Of a stretch of 64,000 nt of DNA, positions 1-9,433 are shown one piece after another. The stretch covers positions 1,798,001 to 1,862,000 of the forward strand of contig NZ_BCMZ01000001.1 in NCBI RefSeq assembly GCF_001485535.1. The letters run 5' to 3'. Position 1 is the stretch's first letter. Every line of letters starts with the position of its first letter. The stretch is from Halobacterium sp. CBA1132 (lineage in GTDB: Archaea; Halobacteriota; Halobacteria; Halobacteriales; Halobacteriaceae). A program made the position numbers and the translations under genes. The notes under the pieces are model-generated. The model searched no databases and was not told where the DNA came from. It worked only from the letters and a program-made list of their open reading frames with translations.

Positions 1-668
1 ACTTCGTCGCCGTCGTCCTTCCAATGGACGCCCGTGATTTCGAGAGTGGTCGAGCCGTCGAGGGCCAGCGAACCCGGGACGTCGCCGACGGCCAGCGAGT
101 CACCGGTCTCCTCGGCGACGAACGCCCCTCCATGGAGTTCGACCTTCCCGAGTTCCCGGCAGCCGCCGGCGCCGAGCCGGACGCCACCGTCGAACTCGTC
201 GAGGAGCCCGGTCAGCGAGCCCTCGAAGATCGTGGCGCTGGCGTCGCCGCAGGTGGACGCGTATGCGAGCGTAACGTCGACCTCGTCGGCGAGCGCCGAC
301 GCCGGGCCGTCGGCCCGGAGCCAGACGCGACCGGGGTTGTCGCAGACGCGGAACGCGACGGTCGCCGAGCCAGACACCGGCCCGCTCGCCGGATCGACGT
401 CGCGGAACGAGAGCGTGACGTCGGTCTCCTCGGCGAACGACGCGGGGAACGCCGCCGGGTCCTGTCGGGGCGTCGTCGTGACCTCGCCGTTGGACTCGAC
501 CAGCGTCGCGACCTGGAGGTCGAGCGACCCGGACGCCACGTCGTTCCCCGGGAACAGCTGGCCGTCCGTGAGGAACGCGTGCGTCCCGACGCCCGCTGCG
601 CCGCCGACGCTCGCCGCGCCGGCGAGCGTGACACCACGAAGCAGTGCGCGCCGCGAGACGTCAGGCAT
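1..668 (-). CDS. SipW/TasA-type secreted beta-sandwich protein, paralog 1 (3' end outside window)
   Basis: Reading starts at the ATG whose complement is at 666-668 (MPDVSRRALLRG) and stays open to the window edge, so about 222 residues of N-terminal part are visible. The signal is Tat-like (VSRRALL) and merges into a SipW-type cleavage region (VGTHAFLTDGQLF), followed by the family strand motif ASGSLDLQV. Later come FRDVDPASG and VAFRVCDNPGRVWLRADG, the counterpart of the DVKPGD/NPGYVW block in its neighbours. It is the most divergent of the seven paralogs and the last in the array. The 5' spacer (669-779) has a CCCG/CGGG hairpin near the start but no T-arm-like element. Function is inferred: extracellular, possibly a filament or cell-surface subunit. 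Confidence 0.8.
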   Translation of the reverse strand, partial: MPDVSRRALLRGVTLAGAASVGGAAGVGTHAFLTDGQLFPGNDVASGSLDLQVATLVESNGEVTTTPRQDPAAFPASFAEETDVTLSFRDVDPASGPVSGSATVAFRVCDNPGRVWLRADGPASALADEVDVTLAYASTCGDASATIFEGSLTGLLDEFDGGVRLGAGGCRELGKVELHGGAFVAEETGDSLAVGDVPGSLALDGSTTLEITGVHWKDDGDE

Positions 669-779
669 CGCCGGTTCCCCCCGTTCCCGTTCGGGACACG
701 ACTGGAACCACGCCCACGGCAAGCATACTTATTGACGCGCTTAGGCGTTCAAGGACCGCCTTAATCCGGCTTGGAATGG

Positions 780-1463
780 TCACGGTCCATCACACGATTC
801 GACGGTGAACGACAGCGACGTCCCGGCGCTGTCGCCCTGTATTCGGTTGCCAGTCGACGCCGCCAACGACCACGAGAGGCCGACGCAGACCGCGCTGTCC
901 GGGTCGATGCAGTCGCCACCGAGTTGGACGCCCTCGGCGAGCGCGGCGTCGGCTTCGACCAGCGACCCGTTCACCAGCGTCGTCTCCGCGGCGTCGAGGT
1001 CGCCGTCGCAGCCGCCGAACCCCAACAACCCGAGCGTTCCGGTGTCGTACCAGACCGCGACGTCGAGCGCGTCGGCGAGCTCGCCGCGGTCGCCCGTCGT
1101 ATCGCCGGCGGCGCGCTCGGGCTCGTTCCGGCCGTTCTCACTGTTCTCGGTGAGCGCGAGCGAGAACGACACGCGTGCGCTCTGGGTGGTGTCGGGGGTC
1201 ACGCGGAACGCCACCGTCCCCGAGTCGCCCGGCTGGGCGTTCCCGACGCCGAGTACCGGGCCGTCTTGCTCGTCGCCGTCGTCGACGACCGCGCCGTTGT
1301 ACGTCTCTCGCCAGTCCACGCGAACCGACGGGTCGCTGCCGACCGTCGTCGACGACTGGTAGGCGACCGCGTCAGAAGTGAGCGCTGTGAGGCCCACGAA
1401 CGACGCCGCGCCCACGGTGGCGGCGGAACCGAGGAGTCGCCGGCGGCTCAATCCCACAGTCAC
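780..1463 (-). CDS. SipW/TasA-type secreted protein, paralog 2
   Basis: A GTG start at 1461-1463 overlaps the TGA of the upstream paralog (GTGA, 4 bases), so the two are translationally coupled. A longer upstream reading is possible but would run into the preceding gene. The product has 227 residues. It opens with TVGLSRRRLLGSAATVG, a Tat-type signal, and a hydrophobic stretch. The body keeps the family pattern (VGNAQPGDSGTVAFRV, then a VWYDTG strand and VCVGLSWSL.STGNRIQGDSAG), but it lacks the C-terminal AEQxRNN signature of paralogs 3-7 and ends FTVESCDGP. Several Cys residues could form disulfides. Role not known; a minor subunit of the same extracellular structure is an inference. Confidence 0.82.
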   Translation of the reverse strand: MTVGLSRRRLLGSAATVGAASFVGLTALTSDAVAYQSSTTVGSDPSVRVDWRETYNGAVVDDGDEQDGPVLGVGNAQPGDSGTVAFRVTPDTTQSARVSFSLALTENSENGRNEPERAAGDTTGDRGELADALDVAVWYDTGTLGLLGFGGCDGDLDAAETTLVNGSLVEADAALAEGVQLGGDCIDPDSAVCVGLSWSLAASTGNRIQGDSAGTSLSFTVESCDGP

Positions 1464-2452
1464 CCCTCCGTGAACGGGTTCGTCGTCCCGTCGTTGTTCC
1501 GACACTGGACCGCGGCGAACGTGAGGTCGAAGGTCACGCTATCGCCCTGCACGACGTTCCCGACACTCGCGGGGAGTTCCCACTCGAAGCCGACGTACCG
1601 GACCTGCTCGTCGCCTGGCTGGTCCTGCGGGAAACAGTCACGGCCAGCCGTTCCGGGGTCGCCATCCAGCGGTATTCCGTCGTCGACCGTTGCGAGCAGG
1701 CCACCGAGCGTGCCCTCGAAGACGAGCGGGCGCTCGGGCGGCGTCTCGTCGCTCTCGCGGGTCTCGTCGCCGTCGTCGTACCAGAGCGTCACCTCGACGG
1801 CGTCGAGGAGTTCACCCGCGCTGGAGCCGTCGCCAGGGTCGTCCTCGGCCGCGGCGTCGAGCTCCGGCTCCGTGACCGCGCCCTCGCTGTTGTCGTCCAA
1901 CGAGCCGCCGAGCCAGACGTAGCCGGGCTCGTCGAACAGGTGGACGCTGTAGGCGACCGACCCCGAGTCGCCGGGTTTCACGTCGTCGAGGTCGATGACC
2001 GGCCCCTCCACGACAAAATTCGGGGAGTCCGCGAACTGGTCGCGATACCGCTGCTCGACGACGGTGCGGTCGGTTTCGCCGAGGTCGCCGTACGAGGTCT
2101 CGTACGTGCTCGAAGCGACGTCGTCGCGGGTCCGTATCGGGTCCTGGATGCCGTCGGGCTCTTCGACTGGCGAGCTGTTCGTGAGGAGTTGGTCGGGGTC
2201 GTCCGGGTCGTTCTTGTATCGGTCCGGGTACGCGTTGACGTACTCGGTCTCGTTCCCCCGGCGGTAGCGTTGTTGCCAGTCCAGTCTCGCGTCCATCGTC
2301 CCCGCCGTAATCGTGTTGTCCTCGAACGTCTCGGTATCACCGAGCAGGGCAGTTGTGCCGAGGCCGGCGCTCGCCGACGCCAGTCCGACGCTGCCCAGCC
2401 CGGCGAGCACGTTGCGCCGCGAGAGCCGGTAGTGTTGCTCGTCGTCGCTCAT
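1460..2452 (-). CDS. SipW/TasA-type secreted protein, paralog 3
   Basis: 330 residues. The start was placed at MSDDEQHYRLSRRNVLAG (complement 2450-2452) because the Tat/SipW signal begins there; the 15 residues upstream would be part of the structured leader. The signal region ends ASAGLGTTALLGDTETF, followed by NTITAGTMDARLDW, the standard first strand. It has DVKPGDSGSVAYSVHLF, EPGYVWLGG, a VTLWYDDGDE strand, VGFEWELPASVGNVVQGDS and the C-terminal FAAVQCRNNDGT. An acidic 60-residue loop (YVNAYPDRYKNDPDDPD onward) sits between strands 1 and 2. It is coupled to paralog 2 downstream. The 5' side carries folded leader A. Confidence 0.88.
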   Translation of the reverse strand: MSDDEQHYRLSRRNVLAGLGSVGLASASAGLGTTALLGDTETFEDNTITAGTMDARLDWQQRYRRGNETEYVNAYPDRYKNDPDDPDQLLTNSSPVEEPDGIQDPIRTRDDVASSTYETSYGDLGETDRTVVEQRYRDQFADSPNFVVEGPVIDLDDVKPGDSGSVAYSVHLFDEPGYVWLGGSLDDNSEGAVTEPELDAAAEDDPGDGSSAGELLDAVEVTLWYDDGDETRESDETPPERPLVFEGTLGGLLATVDDGIPLDGDPGTAGRDCFPQDQPGDEQVRYVGFEWELPASVGNVVQGDSVTFDLTFAAVQCRNNDGTTNPFTEG

Positions 2453-2458
2453 GATTGG

Positions 2459-2555
2459 TTCCCATCCGGGGAAGGCCCACCGGTGGAGTCGAACCACCGT
2501 CCCGCGGCCGCCGCGGTACGAACCGGGTGCGTCGGGGTCCGTGTTCCAAGTGGGC
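2459..2555 (-). promoter_or_regulatory. Folded 5' leader A with T-arm-like hairpin
   Basis: In transcript sense: outer strand GCCCAC (plus 2550-2555) pairs with GTGGGC (2475-2480). One base inside the outer 3' strand is a 5-bp/7-nt hairpin GGTGG-TTCGACT-CCACC (2482-2498), whose loop is a canonical tRNA T-loop. A second hairpin TTCCC-n5-GGGAA (2459-2473) lies just before the ATG at 2452. The same order is seen in leaders B and C. In the first stem leader A has T:A where B and C have C:G, a compensatory change. No D-arm or anticodon arm can be drawn, so it is not a tRNA gene. Confidence 0.6.
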
Positions 2556-2570
2556 TGGTCGGCTGCACGC

Positions 2571-4331
2571 TCAGCTGGGCGCGGTGTAGCTCCCCGACTC
2601 GTAGAGGGTTCCCTCGTCGGGGTCCGTGATCTGGATATCCACGGAACGACTCGAACCGTCGGTCGCCGGGTCGGTCGTCGTGTACGAGAGCGTGTACGCG
2701 GGTTCGGTAATCGCGCCGACGACGTCGTTCAGAATCGTGTCGAAGTCCGCGTCGAAGATGTCGATCCACGAGCCGTCGTCGACGTTCTCCGCGATGTCGC
2801 GCTTCGAGACGCTCCCAGAGCCGACGCTCGCAGGCGCCACGGCGTAGAACGAAAAGTTCCCGTCGTCGAGGAACGTCTCGATGTCCGACTGGCTGAACCG
2901 CGTGTCGGCGTCGGTCTCGGGCGACGCGCCGACGTCGGTGATGTCGATGACGACGCGCTGGGCGCCCGACCGGAACGCGGACAGCGAGGCGCCGGCGCCG
3001 TCCTGAGCGGCGGCGTTGCCGGTCGCGACCGCCAGTGCGTCGAGATTGTCCTCGGGCGTGTCGCCACCACCGGACGCGCTCAGTCCGTTGACGGCGGTCT
3101 GGAACGTCGACGCGTCGGTGAAGTCCTGGTCCAACTCCTCGAGGTCCTTGAACGAGACGAGCGCGTAGCGGGCGTCGATGCCGGCGTCCTCGATGTCTGT
3201 CGTGAGCGACGTGACCTCGCTCTGCAGGGTGCTAATCTCCCCGCTCATGCTCCCGGTGTCGTCGAACACGACGACGATGTCGACGATGCCGCCGGAGTCG
3301 AACGTGACGTCCAGCGTCTGTGCACAGCCGCCCTCACAGACCGCGAAGTTCGACGCGGTGAGGTCGCCGGCGTTCCCCGCCGGCGTGTCGACCCGAACGC
3401 GCGCGTCGACGGCCGGGAAGCCCGAAGTCGCGTCGGGACCGACCGAGAGCAGGTTCGAAAACGCGTTGTCCGTCGGTCCGGGTTCGAACCCGCAGTCGAC
3501 GCACTCGGCGTCGTCGCCGTCCGCACACGGGTTGTGCGTGCCGTCGTTGTTCCGGCACTGCTCGGCGTGGAACTCCAGGTCGAAGCCCACCGAGTCGGAC
3601 TGAATCTCGTTGCCGACCGTCGTGGGGACCTCCCAGTCGATGCAGAGGCAGGCGTTCTCGGCGTCGGCGCCGCCGGCGTAACACTCCTGGTCGCCGGGCG
3701 CGAGGAAGCCGCTCTCGCCGGCGTCGCTGTTGCCGTCGCCGTCGAGGGGGACGCCGTTCCGGATGGCCGAGAGGAACGCCGCCAGCGACCCCTCCCAGAC
3801 GTCGGCGATTTTCGTCGTGTCGTCGGGGCCGAACTCGCCTTCGGGCTCGGACGCGGCGACGTCGACCGAACAGTAGTCGACGTCGACGGTGACGTGCTGC
3901 GCGAGCTCGCCGTTGCCCGGGCCAGTCGTGTCGTCGACGTCGGTCTCCGGTTCGGGCTGCCCATTCTCGTCGTTCGCCGTGAGCTCGCCACAGACCCACA
4001 GGTACGCGGGGTTCCCGTCGATGCGTGGACAGAACGCCAGCGAACCGCTGTCGCCGGGCTTGACGTCGGAGAGCTCGCCGCTGACCGTGCCGCTCTCGTT
4101 CTGGGTTCCCTGGACCTGTCCGGAACCGGCCATTCCCTGGCTCCAGTGCGAGTAGTAGTCGACGAGCAGGTCGAGTGTCCCTGCGGTGATAGTGCTGTTC
4201 TCGAACGACTCGGTGTCGTTGAGGTACGCGGACGTGCCGAGCCCAGCGCCCGCCGACGCGAGGCCGACACCGCCCAGTCCCGCCAGTACCTTCCGCCGCG
4301 AAAGCCGATAGCGTGGATTGTCGTCGGTCAT
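2571..4331 (-). CDS. SipW/TasA-type secreted protein with C-terminal von Willebrand A domain
   Basis: 586 residues starting at MTDDNPRYRLSRRKVLAG. A Tat/SipW signal (residues 9-40) ends GTSAYLNDTESF, followed by the TITAGTLDL strand. The complete beta-sandwich domain occupies about 40-265, with DVKPGDSGSLAF, NPAYLWVCG, TVGNEIQSDSVG and FHAEQCRNNDGT. A Cys-rich linker follows, then a vWA domain at about 350-520 with the MIDAS motif DDTGSMS near residue 357 and a later GGGDTPEDN. A short beta tail (YTLSYTTTD..DPDEGTLYESG) closes the protein. vWA domains bind metal and protein ligands, so an adhesive or tip role is an inference. Leader B precedes the gene. Confidence 0.88.
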   Translation of the reverse strand: MTDDNPRYRLSRRKVLAGLGGVGLASAGAGLGTSAYLNDTESFENSTITAGTLDLLVDYYSHWSQGMAGSGQVQGTQNESGTVSGELSDVKPGDSGSLAFCPRIDGNPAYLWVCGELTANDENGQPEPETDVDDTTGPGNGELAQHVTVDVDYCSVDVAASEPEGEFGPDDTTKIADVWEGSLAAFLSAIRNGVPLDGDGNSDAGESGFLAPGDQECYAGGADAENACLCIDWEVPTTVGNEIQSDSVGFDLEFHAEQCRNNDGTHNPCADGDDAECVDCGFEPGPTDNAFSNLLSVGPDATSGFPAVDARVRVDTPAGNAGDLTASNFAVCEGGCAQTLDVTFDSGGIVDIVVVFDDTGSMSGEISTLQSEVTSLTTDIEDAGIDARYALVSFKDLEELDQDFTDASTFQTAVNGLSASGGGDTPEDNLDALAVATGNAAAQDGAGASLSAFRSGAQRVVIDITDVGASPETDADTRFSQSDIETFLDDGNFSFYAVAPASVGSGSVSKRDIAENVDDGSWIDIFDADFDTILNDVVGAITEPAYTLSYTTTDPATDGSSRSVDIQITDPDEGTLYESGSYTAPS

Positions 4332-4335
4332 GGTT

Positions 4336-4440
4336 GCTCCCCCCTCGGGGAAGACCCACTGGCGGAATCGAACCGCCGACCATCGGCGACGCGGCGGCCC
4401 CAGAGTGAGCCGCGAGTGCGCCGACGAGTGCCAGCGTGGG
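4336..4440 (-). promoter_or_regulatory. Folded 5' leader B with T-arm-like hairpin
   Basis: Transcript sense: outer strand CCCAC (plus 4436-4440) pairs with GTGGG (4355-4359). The inner hairpin is GGCGG-TTCGATT-CCGCC (4361-4377) with a T-loop sequence, and a C/G-rich hairpin (about 4337-4353) covers the probable ribosome-binding region before the ATG at 4331. The 5' side reads CCCACGCTGGC, as in leader C. It lies in the 124-base spacer after paralog 5. Confidence 0.6.
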
Positions 4441-4455
4441 CTGTGCGCGCCATCG

Positions 4456-5286
4456 CTACGCGCCGCTGAACGGGTCGCCGTTGTTCCGGACCTGCTCGGC
4501 GTCGAACCGGAGCGTGAACGTCACCGAGTCGCCCTGCACGTCGTTGCCGACGCCGGGCGGGAGTTCGAACAGCTGGTAGTAGTGGACATCCGCGCTGTCG
4601 CTCGTACTCCCCACCTCGATTGGCGTGCCGCTCGGGTCGCTGAGCAGTACGCCGTCGCGGTACACGTCGTGGGCCTCGTCGAGGGTCGTGTAGTGCGCCC
4701 CGCTGGCCGTGACGCCGCCGAGGTCTGGTGGCTCGTACCCGGGCAGCCACGTGTCGTTGTGGTCGGTGGTCTCGTCGAGCATCTGGAGCTTCGCGCGGTC
4801 GGATCCGGCCGTCGTGTCCTTGCTGCCCCAGATTGTCGTGAGCAGCGCGGCGCCGAGGTCGCCCGGCGAAGCAGTGTCGGTCTCTGCTTCCGGGTTGTCG
4901 CCCTCGGCGTTGCTGTAGTCCTCGTCGACCGACGTGACCTGCACGTAGCCGGGGTTGCCGTCGATCTCGACGTGCCAGTCGAGGATGAACCAGTCGCCCG
5001 GCTTCATGTCGTCGACAGTGATAGTGACGGTGTTCCCGTCGGCCGTGTCGTCGGCGTCCTCGTCCGTGGAGTCGACGACGGGGTCCGGGAGGTCCGGACT
5101 CTTGTCGTCGACATCCACCGACACCACCATGTTCAGCGCACCTGCGGTCAGGCTGTTGCCCTCGAAGGACTCGGTGTCGTTGAGGTACGCGGTCGTGCCG
5201 AGGCCGGCCCCTGCCGAGGCGAGTCCGACGCCGCCGACGCCGGCGAGCAGCTTCCGCCGTGTGAGTTCGTATCGTTTGTCGGTCAT
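4456..5286 (-). CDS. SipW/TasA-type secreted protein, paralog 5
   Basis: 276 residues from MTDKRYELTRRKLLAGVGG. The open frame extends 10 codons further, but those lie in leader C. The signal ends GAGLGTTAYLNDTESF; the next strand is NSLTAGALNMVVSVDV. It has DDMKPGDWFILDWHVEID and NPGYVQVTS, then a loop with WLPGYEPPDLGG. It ends VGNDVQGDSVTFTLRF and the C-terminal signature FDAEQVRNNGDPFSGA. It closely resembles paralog 7 (KPGDW form, TTIWGS / ATIWDS, HYTTLDEAHDVY / HYTTLREAYDTY), so these two form a subfamily, perhaps the major structural subunits. That last point is inference only. Confidence 0.88.
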   Translation of the reverse strand: MTDKRYELTRRKLLAGVGGVGLASAGAGLGTTAYLNDTESFEGNSLTAGALNMVVSVDVDDKSPDLPDPVVDSTDEDADDTADGNTVTITVDDMKPGDWFILDWHVEIDGNPGYVQVTSVDEDYSNAEGDNPEAETDTASPGDLGAALLTTIWGSKDTTAGSDRAKLQMLDETTDHNDTWLPGYEPPDLGGVTASGAHYTTLDEAHDVYRDGVLLSDPSGTPIEVGSTSDSADVHYYQLFELPPGVGNDVQGDSVTFTLRFDAEQVRNNGDPFSGA

Positions 5287-5294
5287 CTGTGTCG

Positions 5295-5371
5295 CTCCCC
5301 TAGCGGGGAAACCCACCGGCGGAGTCGAACCGCCGAACTGCGGCCCGGTGCCGCGTCACGCCAGCGTGGGT
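5295..5371 (-). promoter_or_regulatory. Folded 5' leader C with T-arm-like hairpin
   Basis: Transcript sense: outer strand ACCCAC (plus 5366-5371) pairs with GTGGGT (5311-5316), a perfect 6 bp. The inner hairpin is GGCGG-TTCGACT-CCGCC (5318-5334). The start-proximal hairpin TCCCC-GCTA-GGGGA (5296-5309) holds the only purine-rich stretch before the ATG at 5286. It is the shortest of the three copies because the region between the outer 5' strand and the T-arm hairpin is reduced. Confidence 0.62.
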
Positions 5372-5391
5372 CGTGGTCTGGTCCTGTGCGT

Positions 5392-6996
5392 CTACGACGG
5401 TGCCGTGGTCGTGCCGTCCGTGGAGCCGCTGCCCGTGCCGTCGTTGTTCCGGCACTGTTCAGCGTAGAATCCGAGGTCGAAACTCACGGTGTCGCCCTGA
5501 ATTTCGTTCTCGACCTCGCCGGGAATCTCCCAAGCGAACCCGAGACAGTGGCCGACGTGCGGGTCGAAGCAGGCGCGTCCCTCGGCCGTCCCGGCGGCGT
5601 CGAGCGGGATGCCGTCACCGTCGGAGAGCGCCGAGAGTGCCTCGTTGAGGGTGCCCTCGAAGAACACGAGCTCCGAGGTGAACAGCCCGGCCAGCCCCTC
5701 GAACGTCCCCGGGAGGTCGCTGGGGTCTTCGACGTCCCGGTAGTACGAGGCGTCGTTCCCCGCCGACCCGTCCTCGCCGGCCATCTCGGTCAGCGTCGCG
5801 TCGTTGGCGTCCGGGCCGATACCGACGGTGTACACGTCGGTCGCGGGCGCGGGCGAGGCCGCGCGGGCGTCGTCTGCCGCACTCGTCGGCGAGATGTACG
5901 TCGTACCGTCAGCGCCCGAGAAGGAGTTCCCGTTCGAGAAGACGAGGTCGACGGCCTCCGCCTGCATGCGGCCGTTGGCCCCGAGTTCGTCCTGAGCCTC
6001 CTGAATGCCCTCACCGATGAACGTGCCTTCCGCGACGTCAACGTCCGCGTACGGGTCCGCCGTGCTCGCACCGACAATGGTCGCGAGCGTCTGCCGGAGC
6101 CCGTCGAGCGCGCCGCCCGATGCGGTCAGCGTCGAGAGGTCGTCCGTCAACGGCGCGGCGAGTTGAACGTGCGGCGACCCGCCCGAGGAGCCGTTGAAGA
6201 ACACGACGCCGACCTGCGAGTCGGCACCCAGGGAGTCGAGTTCGTTCACGAGGTTCTTCGCGCCCTGCTCGACGAGGTCGATTTTCGTCGTCTCGTCGTG
6301 CCCGAGGATGGGGTCGTCCTCGTCGACGACGCCGCCGAACTCGTCGTACAGCATCGAGCCGGAGACGTCGATCGTGAGCATGATGTCCGCGCGGTTTACG
6401 CGGTTGTCACAGTCCTCGTCGTACCACAGCCGGACGTCGATGTTCTCCGCGAGGTCCGCGGAGTTCTCCGAGTCGACTTCCTGCTCGGGTTCCGGGTGCG
6501 CGCCGCCGTCCTCGGAGACGTTACCCGCCTGCATCCAGACGTAGCCGGGGTTGTTACAGAGGTGGAGGCTGAACGTAATTTCGCCCCTGTCTCCGGGTTT
6601 CACGTCGGATAGCGAGACCAGCGAGTCCTGCTCGCCGAAGCTCTCCTCGTAGTTCTGGTCGAAGTTCTCGCAGGTGAGGTGGTCGACGAGGTTCCGGCCC
6701 TCGTCGCTGTACTGGTACACCTCGTCGTCGATGCTGATGGACTGTTCGCCGTCGCCGTCGTGGTCCGGGTGCGCGTTGACGAACTCCCAGGACTCGGTCG
6801 GCCCGTAGTAGGACTGCTGCCAGTCGACTTTCAGGTCGAGCGTGCCCGCGGTGATTGTGTTCCCCTCGAACGACTCGGTGTCGTTGAGGTACGCGGACGT
6901 CCCGAGGCCAGCGCCCGCCGACGCCAGTCCGATGCCGCCCAGTCCCGCCAGCACCTTGCGGCGGGAGAGTTCGAACGAAGTGGATTTGTCACTCAT
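5392..6996 (-). CDS. SipW/TasA-type secreted protein with inserted von Willebrand A domain
   Basis: 534 residues from MSDKSTSFELSRRKVLAG. The signal ends GTSAYLNDTESF; TITAGTLDLKVDW follows. The beta-sandwich begins (DVKPGDRGEITFSLHL, NPGYVWMQAG, VRLWYDEDCDN) and is interrupted by a vWA domain at about 203-435 with MIDAS motif DVSGSM near residue 210. The sandwich then resumes (FFEGTLNEALSAL, LGFAWEIPGEVENEIQGD) and closes with FYAEQCRNNDGTG. Unlike the other vWA paralog, where vWA follows the finished sandwich, here it sits inside it. The gene follows paralog 7 with 6 bases between, so the two are probably cotranscribed. Confidence 0.88.
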   Translation of the reverse strand: MSDKSTSFELSRRKVLAGLGGIGLASAGAGLGTSAYLNDTESFEGNTITAGTLDLKVDWQQSYYGPTESWEFVNAHPDHDGDGEQSISIDDEVYQYSDEGRNLVDHLTCENFDQNYEESFGEQDSLVSLSDVKPGDRGEITFSLHLCNNPGYVWMQAGNVSEDGGAHPEPEQEVDSENSADLAENIDVRLWYDEDCDNRVNRADIMLTIDVSGSMLYDEFGGVVDEDDPILGHDETTKIDLVEQGAKNLVNELDSLGADSQVGVVFFNGSSGGSPHVQLAAPLTDDLSTLTASGGALDGLRQTLATIVGASTADPYADVDVAEGTFIGEGIQEAQDELGANGRMQAEAVDLVFSNGNSFSGADGTTYISPTSAADDARAASPAPATDVYTVGIGPDANDATLTEMAGEDGSAGNDASYYRDVEDPSDLPGTFEGLAGLFTSELVFFEGTLNEALSALSDGDGIPLDAAGTAEGRACFDPHVGHCLGFAWEIPGEVENEIQGDTVSFDLGFYAEQCRNNDGTGSGSTDGTTTAPS

Positions 6997-7002
6997 CGTT
7001 CC

Positions 7003-7821
7003 TCAGGTCCCCGTGGAATTGGTCTCGGTGCCGTTGCCAGCGAACGGGTCGCTGTTGTTCCGGGACTGCTCGGCGTCGAAGACGAGGTCGAAGCTCAGGG
7101 AGTCGCCCTGAATCTCGTTGCCGACCTCCGTCGGGATTTCGAGCAGCAGGCAGAGTTCGGCGGCGTTCGTCGAGGTCGGTTCCTCGCTGCCGCCGAGCGT
7201 GACGCCCGTGCTGTACGTGTCGTAGGCTTCCCGAAGGGTGGTGTAGTGAGTGTCGTCGTCGACAACACCGCCCTCGTCACGCGAGGAATTCCAGCTCTCG
7301 GCCTGACTACCGCCGTCGACGTTCGTCGTCCCGTCCAATCCGGAGAGGCCGCTGCGGTCTCCCGAGTCGTCGTAGCTGTCCCAGATGGTCGCGAGAATCG
7401 CGTCGTCGAGTTCGCCCTCCTCGGCCGATTCGTCGCTGCCCTCGGGCTCCGTGTAGCCGTTCTCGCTGGACGTGAGTTCCGCGGTACTGACCTGGAGGTA
7501 GCCGGGGTTCTCCTCGATGGAGACATCGAAACAGATGATACCCCAGTCGCCGGGCTTGACGTCGTCGATGGTGACGCCGGAGACTGCTTCACCGTCCGCG
7601 GTCGCACTGAGGTCGACGGCGCTCGACCAGTACGAGCTGGCCGCTTCGACGGTCGCGGTGACGCTCATGTCGAGCGTGCCCGCGGTGATTGTGTTGTCTT
7701 CGAACGATTCGGTGTCGTTGAGGTACGCGGATGTCCCGAGCCCGGCGGCGGCACCGGCAACCCCGATGGTGCCGAGACCGGCGAGCACGCGACGGCGCGT
7801 GAGTTTGACTTTCTTCGACAT
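7003..7821 (-). CDS. SipW/TasA-type secreted protein, paralog 7 (first of array)
   Basis: 272 residues from MSKKVKLTRRRVLAGLG (complement 7819-7821); the reading frame upstream to 7860 lacks signal features. The signal ends GLGTSAYLNDTESF, followed by NTITAGTLDMSVTATV. It has DDVKPGDWGIICFDVSIE, NPGYLQVST, DDAILATIWDSYDD, HYTTLREAYDTYSTG, TEVGNEIQGDSLSF and FDAEQSRNNSDPF. It is the first gene of the cluster, and a TATA-like stretch lies upstream in the divergent spacer. Known relatives (Bacillus TasA, archaeal bundling pilins) form donor-strand filaments. No SipW-like peptidase gene is in the window. Confidence 0.88.
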   Translation of the reverse strand: MSKKVKLTRRRVLAGLGTIGVAGAAAGLGTSAYLNDTESFEDNTITAGTLDMSVTATVEAASSYWSSAVDLSATADGEAVSGVTIDDVKPGDWGIICFDVSIEENPGYLQVSTAELTSSENGYTEPEGSDESAEEGELDDAILATIWDSYDDSGDRSGLSGLDGTTNVDGGSQAESWNSSRDEGGVVDDDTHYTTLREAYDTYSTGVTLGGSEEPTSTNAAELCLLLEIPTEVGNEIQGDSLSFDLVFDAEQSRNNSDPFAGNGTETNSTGT

Positions 7822-7932
7822 GGTCTGGTCGGGCCCAGCCACCGTGGCGGGCTCTATCACACCCGTGTCGGGACGACCCCATAGCTAATCGCGCAATTGC
7901 GTCGAAAACGACCGATTTGAGCGCCCTAAGGC

Positions 7933-7950
7933 ACGCATTGATATTTTAAC
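7933..7950 (-). promoter_or_regulatory. Candidate TATA promoter of the secreted-protein array
   Basis: The minus strand reads TTAAAATATCAATGC in the 254-base divergent spacer between paralog 7 and the HTH protein at 8076. A start some 25 bases further on would leave an untranslated leader of 80-90 bases, longer than the leaderless norm of haloarchaea. A plus-strand AT-rich stretch (cgataaataa, about 8040-8049) would serve the divergent gene. Confidence 0.4.
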
Positions 7951-8075
7951 ACGTCGCTTGCCGGCCGCTAAGAGGGTCGCTACGCGCGACCACAAGAAGT
8001 AAGGATTCCAATAAAACTCGGCGTGTACCGGTAAGAGAGCCGATAAATAAGCCGACAGATTGCGCGTGACCGAAC

Positions 8076-8606
8076 ATGGCGCTCACGCGGTCCACGACGC
8101 TCGCCGAGACGGACATCCACGACATCCTCCGGAACGACCGGCGACGCCGCGTCCTCGAACACCTCCAGGAGTCTCTCGGTACCGTCACGCTGCGCGAACT
8201 CGCGGAGACCATCGCCGCCCACGAGTCCGGCGAGCGCCCGCCGCCGCGGCAACTCCGCGAAAGCGTCTACAACTCCCTCCACCAGACCCACCTCCCGAAG
8301 CTCGACCGCGAAGGCGTCGTCGCCTACGACGAACACCGCAAGACCGTGGAACTCCAGGCGGGCGCCCGGGACGTCAACGTCTACATGGAGGTCGTCACGA
8401 AGTACGGCATCACGTGGGCGGACTACTACCGGACGCTGGCGACGGCGTCGCTCGTCGCCGTCGTCGCCGTCGAGCTCGGCGTTCCCGTCGTGGAGGTCAT
8501 TCCGGTGTTACTGGTGGTGAGCACGGCGCTCGCGGTCGTCGCCGCGTCCACCGCCTACCAGCTGTGGACCCGGCGGTGGACGTACCTCCGGGCACTCCTA
8601 GATTGA
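8076..8606 (+). CDS. Winged-helix DNA-binding protein with two membrane segments
   Basis: 176 residues. Residues 10-115 look like the haloarchaeal winged-helix domain often listed as DUF7344 (DIHDILRNDRRRRVLEHL, TLRELAETIA, LHQTHLPKLDREGVVAYD). Two hydrophobic helices follow (TLATASLVAVVAVELGV; VIPVLLVVSTALAVVA), then a short basic end. It would sit in the membrane with the DNA-binding part inside. It is transcribed away from the SipW/TasA-like array and shares its 250-base spacer, so it is a candidate regulator of that array (inference from position only). Confidence 0.8.
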   Translation: MALTRSTTLAETDIHDILRNDRRRRVLEHLQESLGTVTLRELAETIAAHESGERPPPRQLRESVYNSLHQTHLPKLDREGVVAYDEHRKTVELQAGARDVNVYMEVVTKYGITWADYYRTLATASLVAVVAVELGVPVVEVIPVLLVVSTALAVVAASTAYQLWTRRWTYLRALLD

Positions 8607-8626
8607 GCGTGGGGTCGTCGGCGAAG

Positions 8627-9433
8627 TCACTTCTCGGGGAGCGGCGCTTCGAAGATGCGCTCGCCACACGACGTACACGAGGCCGCCACGACCGGAACCG
8701 AGCGACAGCACGACTCGACGGTCTCCTCGCCGAGTTCGACGCGACCGTCGCAGACCGAACAGCGGTCGAGCCACAGGCGCAGGCCAGCGAGGAGCTGAGT
8801 GCGTTCCGCGAAGCCGCGCTCGTCCCACCCCGGGTCGGCGTCCGACAGCGCCACCGCACCGGCGGCGTCCGCGACGAACGCCGCCCGCGACGGCCACTTC
8901 GCGATGGACGTGTTCTCGACCCGCGCGACGACGGTCGCACCCCGGAATTCGACGCTGGCGGAGTCGTCGAACGACGCGGGGAGCATGGAGTCGAGCACGC
9001 CGTCGACGTCGTCGGCGGCCGCCGGCATCGCCGAGCGCCAGCTCCTGCGGAACGCCCGGGCCAGACAGAGGTCCTCACCGTCGGCACACGGCTCCAGTGC
9101 GCCCGCGGTGACGAGCGCGCGCTCCGGGTCGAACTCGGCTCCCGCGTTCGACGCCGTGTCCGCCGGCCCACCGTGCTCGAAGTACGCGAGCACGCGCTCG
9201 GGGAGGTACCGCTTCGTGAGCGTCGGCGTTCCCGGGACGACGTAGCCGCGAGCCCACACTAGCGCCGCGCCGAGAACGACGGCGACGACGCCGACGGCTG
9301 GCGCGACCCGGGCGGCGAGCACGAGCGCGACGACCGCGACCAACGCCAGGTTCAGGAGCGTGCACGGGAGACAGCGGTTCTCGCCCGTGTACTCCGGGCG
9401 ACGGAGTTCGGTGACCACGCGGCGACCCTGCAT
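8627..9433 (-). CDS. Conserved haloarchaeal membrane protein with Cys-rich ends
   Basis: 268 residues, start taken at MQGRRVVTELRRPEYTGE (complement 9431-9433) rather than 28 codons upstream. N-terminal CLPC, then two adjacent membrane helices (about 30-68) and a soluble region of some 190 residues. The C-terminal part has CSVCDG, a CC pair and CTSCGE, a probable zinc site. No enzyme motif was recognised. It converges on the HTH gene with a 20-base gap. Function unknown. Confidence 0.7.
   Translation of the reverse strand: MQGRRVVTELRRPEYTGENRCLPCTLLNLALVAVVALVLAARVAPAVGVVAVVLGAALVWARGYVVPGTPTLTKRYLPERVLAYFEHGGPADTASNAGAEFDPERALVTAGALEPCADGEDLCLARAFRRSWRSAMPAAADDVDGVLDSMLPASFDDSASVEFRGATVVARVENTSIAKWPSRAAFVADAAGAVALSDADPGWDERGFAERTQLLAGLRLWLDRCSVCDGRVELGEETVESCCRSVPVVAASCTSCGERIFEAPLPEK

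Follow-up and report, generated by a model that had tools for sequence, protein, structure and literature searches.

The stretch of DNA analyzed here, which we refer to as the window, comprises 64,000 nt of the Halobacterium sp. CBA1132 genome (NZ_BCMZ01000001.1, positions 1,798,001 to 1,862,000). Within its first 8 kb lies an array of genes on the minus strand, all of the SipW type (NCBIfam TIGR04088); two of them code for proteins with VWA domains. In three intergenic gaps of this array we find copies of a structured element, all on the minus strand, each followed by a short hairpin. The features are given below in 5' to 3' order of the coding strand, with scores from the covariance model R1 described in the next section and with the cuts predicted for tRNase Z:

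7003..7821, minus strand: first gene of the array (SipW-type), lacking an upstream element
5392..6996, minus strand: second SipW-type gene, with a VWA domain, 6 nt after the first gene and without an element
5312..5370, minus strand: t-element copy 3, 21 nt beyond the 5392-6996 stop codon; CCCAC - GCTGG...(30-nt insert) - CGGCGG TTCGACT CCGCCG - GTGGG; R1 46.2 bits
5296..5309, minus strand: predicted 5'-terminal hairpin after copy 3, TCCCC-GCTA-GGGGA, predicted fold -9.3 kcal/mol, starting at nt 1 after the predicted cut (5310/5309)
4456..5286, minus strand: SipW-type gene downstream of copy 3, ATG at 5286
4355..4440, minus strand: t-element copy 2, 15 nt beyond the 4456-5286 stop codon; CCCAC - GCTGG...(57-nt insert) - CGGCGG TTCGATT CCGCCA - GTGGG; R1 24.1 bits
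4337..4352, minus strand: predicted 5'-terminal hairpin after copy 2, TTCCCC-GAGG-GGGGAG; predicted cut 4353/4352
2571..4331, minus strand: SipW-type gene with a VWA domain, downstream of copy 2, ATG at 4331
2476..2554, minus strand: t-element copy 1, 16 nt past the stop codon of the 2571-4331 gene; CCCAC - TTGG...(50-nt insert) - CGGTGG TTCGACT CCACCG - GTGGG; R1 33.1 bits
2459..2473, minus strand: predicted 5'-terminal hairpin after copy 1, TTCCC-CGGAT-GGGAA; predicted cut 2474/2473
1460..2452, minus strand: SipW-type gene downstream of copy 1, ATG at 2452

Read 5' to 3', the element consists of a 5-bp outer stem, a one-sided insert, a 6-bp inner stem capped by a TTCGAYT T-loop, and the 3' strand of the outer stem, the outer strands being CCCAC and GTGGG in the window copies. 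The original prediction had rightly recognized this outer stem and the TTCGAYT loops in all three copies, the compensating GGTGG/CCACC and GGCGG/CCGCC stem pairs, and the TGG that follows the 5' outer strand in each. The inner stem, for which it gave 5 bp, has 6, with the sixth pair being C-G, or C-A in copy 2, and covarying elsewhere to G-C and U-A. It had further placed a hairpin over the start region; one is indeed present before each ATG, but its first nucleotide coincides with the site where tRNase Z is predicted to cut, and it does not reach the ATG. Between the arms, the spacer varies and, in the window copies, forms a fold of its own; the low R1 score of copy 2 is probably a consequence of its long insert. 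The bare T-arm motif GGNGGTTCGAYTCCNCC occurs three times in the window and not once in 100 dinucleotide shuffles. Searching window positions 1-9000 with Rfam 15 families gave no match at the elements and only chance-level matches elsewhere, and ARAGORN calls copy 1 alone (2474-2555) as a false tRNA with a two-base anticodon. Genome annotations may hold spurious tRNAs of this kind.

The same genome carries a further copy at C1:2324771-2324814 and another at C1:972454-972491 (minus strand, positions 2001-2038 of the fetched locus L058), which has a CCCGC/GCGGG outer stem and a hairpin after it. The latter copy precedes a gene for a 189-aa protein that is not of the SipW type and is apparently a first gene. 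The 5S rRNA gene of this genome has its own copy directly upstream, and a tRNase Z gene is present.

Covariation and identity with the 5S rRNA t-element

A pattern search detected the element in 71 of the 293 genomes of the order, with a few of the matches being chance ones in which the inner stem is unpaired; the reversed-pattern control gave no match in any genome listed for the same order. The covariance model R1, built only from mRNA copies, 26 of those recovered by the pattern, found matches with E of 0.01 or better in 157 of the 293 genomes, a total that includes 5S copies. Among the matches listed in a scan of the wider phylum, all belonged to the same order, though the filters used may drop weaker matches. 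When 127 distinct sequences were pooled and their alignment fitted to R1, 99.2% of the cells were paired; two-sided changes are seen at 8 of the 11 pairs, and double-change cells number 113 against 18.8 in shuffles, with the stems covarying across haloarchaeal families. The covariance search proposed in the original prediction, for which a lack of further covarying copies was named as one refuting outcome, returned well over 100 covarying copies.

For the analysis of elements in mRNAs we used a set of 82 structure-only matches with a start codon within 60 nt. In 78 of these a GG lies near the start of the insert, 1-4 nt past the outer 5' strand. Most copies are 37-44 nt long, and outer-stem variants include CCGAC/GTCGG, CCCGC/GCGGG, CTCAC/GTGAG and CCCGG/CCGGG. 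The outer stem and the T-arm together resemble the acceptor/T-arm stack of a tRNA that has neither D arm nor anticodon arm. The 12th acceptor pair known from tRNA can be formed in 58 of the 82 mRNA copies but only in 3 of 24 copies upstream of 5S genes, and is therefore not a general feature.

Of 20 loci fetched as possible rRNA neighbors, 13 had a 5S gene, with the R1 match lying 3-4 nt upstream, and in tandem arrangements (L063, L064, L065, L068 and L069) each 5S copy is preceded by a t-element of its own. To avoid circularity, we assembled an independent set of 5S genes chosen by Rfam alone, and analyzed their upstream sequences with a script that required pairing and the T-loop consensus, dispensing with the GG, any fixed outer sequence and the covariance model. 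The structure was recovered in 24 of the 26 sequences, and the GG was found in all 24; in the ungapped alignment anchored on the 5S genes, 96.7% of the inner-stem cells are paired, and there are 23 double-change cells against 5.8 in shuffles. The T-loop is separated by 13 nt from UUAAGG, which we take to be the mature 5' end of haloarchaeal 5S rRNA (the Rfam start lies 1 nt further in). This spacing equals that from the T-loop of a tRNA to the point just after the discriminator base (the tRNA position 73 rule).

A t-element upstream of haloarchaeal 5S rRNA was described previously (Hölzle et al. 2008 RNA 14:928; 2012 Biochimie 94:940), and according to the passages on it in PMC4326828 and PMC3296008 it is processed by tRNase Z at the 5' end of the 5S rRNA. 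The same sources describe t-elements in general as substrates of RNase P and tRNase Z, and report that a crRNA flanked by t-elements in Haloferax yields crRNA of natural size in vivo. Hence, a haloarchaeal relative has been described, where the original prediction knew of none. The mRNA elements belong to the same structural class as the 5S t-element: a single covariance model captures both, and they share the 6-bp T-stem, the TTCGA loop, the GG two to four nt after the outer 5' strand and a 13-nt spacing, predicted in the case of the mRNAs, from the T-loop to the downstream RNA. They differ from it in preceding a protein-coding cistron, in the stem-loop that follows the predicted cut, and in the outer stem, which is mostly CCCAC/GTGGG in mRNA copies and CCGAY/RTCGG in 5S copies. 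The window copies are thus t-elements by structure and not 5S t-elements, since protein genes lie downstream of them and the 5S gene has a copy of its own. The third outer pair, C-G in mRNA copies and G-C in 5S copies, is divided in this way across families; structure alone gives no account of the difference, which hints that recognition might involve sequence beyond the structure.

Intercistronic placement and the downstream hairpin

Among 80 proteins encoded downstream of the elements, 46 match the model of the SipW-dependent signal peptide, with others matching the fimbrial proteins TafA, TafC, TafE and TafF or DUF1102. These matches place the elements mainly in operons for TasA/Taf-like secreted fibers, with a few outside them, such as the L058 copy. 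Within the set of 82, the next start codon mostly follows after 20-30 nt, and 62 copies have the end of a same-strand gene within 100 nt upstream, to which about 10 more can be added where the upstream gene was missed by the caller; as a rule, no more than about 60 nt separate the upstream stop codon from the start of the element. Using gene calls from a home-made script, we surveyed 142 SipW/DUF1102-type genes in loci selected for the element, with internal genes defined as those whose upstream cistron is at least 60 nt away. The element precedes 75 of 82 internal genes as against 7 of 44 first genes (p=8e-18). As selection of the loci by the element could bias this count, we repeated it on 20 arrays chosen by protein family, where 11 of 25 internal genes but none of 17 first genes have the element (p=0.001). 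The internal count rises to 15 of 25 if four cases with only a T-arm are included, and over half of these internal gaps of at least 60 nt lack a strict match. Some internal gaps of SipW arrays (L288, L292, L294, L295 and L307) contain a T-arm-like hairpin with a degenerate loop, e.g. GCGG-TTCGCGA-CCGC, and in such gaps the usual CCC/GGG hairpin comes next. Approximately 7-9 fetched copies precede apparent first genes, some with a TATA-like sequence upstream. At such positions there are no cistrons to be separated, which speaks against the processing reading, but these copies can be read as the same cassette trimming a leader to a defined 5' end. A search for A/T-run promoters between the upstream gene and the element was uninformative, as first genes gave none either.

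On the 3' side, we set the predicted cut at the 13-nt point, 2 nt past the outer stem. The next stem-loop starts 1, 2 or 3 nt after this point in 78 of the 82 leaders (41, 24 and 13, respectively). The leader hairpins have a mean MFE of -9.3 kcal/mol, whereas the 22 nt that precede element-free first genes average -2.5, in a comparison that is not length-matched, and the median z of the leader fold against its own shuffles is only -1.4. Accordingly, the register of the hairpin is stronger evidence than its energy.

The original prediction had left the choice between a translational switch and a processing signal. Processing is strongly supported by membership in the 5S t-element class and by the intercistronic placement, while the switch finds little support. 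In a cis-regulatory leader of the latter kind, the T-loop fold would alternate with the start-region hairpin, thereby exposing or hiding the downstream RBS. The 3' strand of the second hairpin does lie close to the start codon, mostly at a distance of 4-15 nt, and is overlapped by an SD-like 4-mer in 35 of 75 element leaders; a few copies also stand before apparent first genes. However, SD-like 4-mers at usable spacing are hardly commoner in element leaders (42 of 75) than in those without an element (16 of 37), which amounts to no clear enrichment. A leader switch should also be present irrespective of operon position, but the counts given above have the element nearly always absent before first genes. 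Moreover, the same structure is used by 5S rRNA, which is untranslated, and the insert varies in both length and sequence, unlike a ligand-binding core. We therefore consider a switch unlikely. An alternative with rather poor prospects is that the element is a protein-binding or stabilizing hairpin for the 3' end of the upstream mRNA, and that no endonuclease acts on it. This would agree with its usual start about 60 nt or less past the upstream stop codon, but does not explain why the downstream hairpin is aligned with the predicted site of tRNase Z cutting or why the spacing to the following start codon is so narrow; both imply that the downstream side is under selection too, and the 5S relatives are reported as cut. 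Finally, an origin from decayed tRNA genes or mobile-element attachment sites, which might be suggested by the ARAGORN call on copy 1, is hardly credible, as no copy in the window matches the Rfam tRNA family (RF00005), most copies are too short for the missing D and anticodon arms, and the covariation of the stems across haloarchaeal families refutes it, for decay would not keep such pairing.

Probable processing of fimbrial mRNAs by tRNA enzymes

Given that the elements match the known cutting signal of the 5S t-element, the mRNAs are probably cut into single-gene pieces, and we regard it as quite likely that the elements are mRNA t-elements and that a polycistronic transcript is split at them by tRNase Z, together with RNase P. 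In the course of events that we infer, the SipW-type fimbria-like array would be transcribed as one polycistronic RNA, in which the 11-bp stack of the outer stem and T-arm would mimic the acceptor/T-arm half of a tRNA, while the insert's GG would take the place of G18-G19 of tRNA and dock into the T-loop. tRNase Z would then cleave where the 3' end of a tRNA would lie, 13 nt 3' of the T-loop, with RNase P possibly acting on the 5' side of the element. The downstream cistron would be freed as an mRNA of its own, beginning at its very 5' end with a short stem-loop, followed by mostly 4-15 unpaired nt and the ATG, and the 5' hairpin would shield it from a 5'-3' exonuclease. Such cutting would allow the mRNAs of the fiber subunits to differ in stability and might thereby affect their stoichiometry.

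Tracing the element further, we observed a 41-nt version, CCCACTCYGGYGAC..CGGTTCGATTCCG..GTGGG, in Lactobacillaceae genomes (L192 1164-1204; L195 5155-5195 and 3807-3847; L202; L216 3612-3652; L228; L241) and in viral contigs that are apparently temperate phages (L245-L250, L252 and L253). It scores 40-54 bits with R1 and lies directly past a stop codon, and the next start often follows 29-45 nt further on; some of the genes upstream resemble superinfection-exclusion proteins. Another viral contig, L251 (57% GC), has an element of the same kind at 6255-6295 (40 bits). When phage collections were queried with the Lactobacillaceae element, most matches were short and many fell in phage tRNAs. 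The Lactobacillaceae version looks like an independent use of the mini-tRNA device.

Comparable tRNA mimics that define ends within longer transcripts are the plant mitochondrial t-element and the 3' ends of MALAT1 and MENbeta, the last two being cut by RNase P and RNase Z (review PMC4919922). These are organellar or eukaryotic RNAs, whereas here a conserved cassette lies between the cistrons of archaeal operons, and no common descent is implied. RNase P also cleaves bacterial polycistronic mRNAs of E. coli operons (work cited in PMC4919922). The E. coli sites are likewise a case of intercistronic processing by a tRNA enzyme. To our knowledge, those sites do not mimic a T-arm with covarying stems, nor do they go with a single gene family. 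The structural kind is already known from 5S rRNA; a literature search whose reach did not extend to Hölzle 2012 found no report of the t-element as a conserved intercistronic mRNA element, and its conserved use as mRNA punctuation appears to be new, although priority is not certain.

On balance, we favor the view that covarying mini-tRNAs serve haloarchaea as punctuation in protein-coding operons, so that a polycistronic fimbrial transcript yields monocistronic mRNAs that carry 5'-terminal hairpins, as a prokaryotic counterpart of the mitochondrial tRNA-punctuation model, with the same device used in some temperate phages of Lactobacillaceae. With these elements, mRNAs that are candidate targets of archaeal tRNase Z can be predicted and, as t-elements are already a working tool in Haloferax, tested at once. 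The covariance model describes a structured RNA class that is absent from Rfam. If the proposal is true, cleavage of archaeal mRNAs at dedicated, conserved sites would be a routine activity of tRNA-processing enzymes, providing a mechanism for uncoupling subunit levels within secreted-fiber operons.
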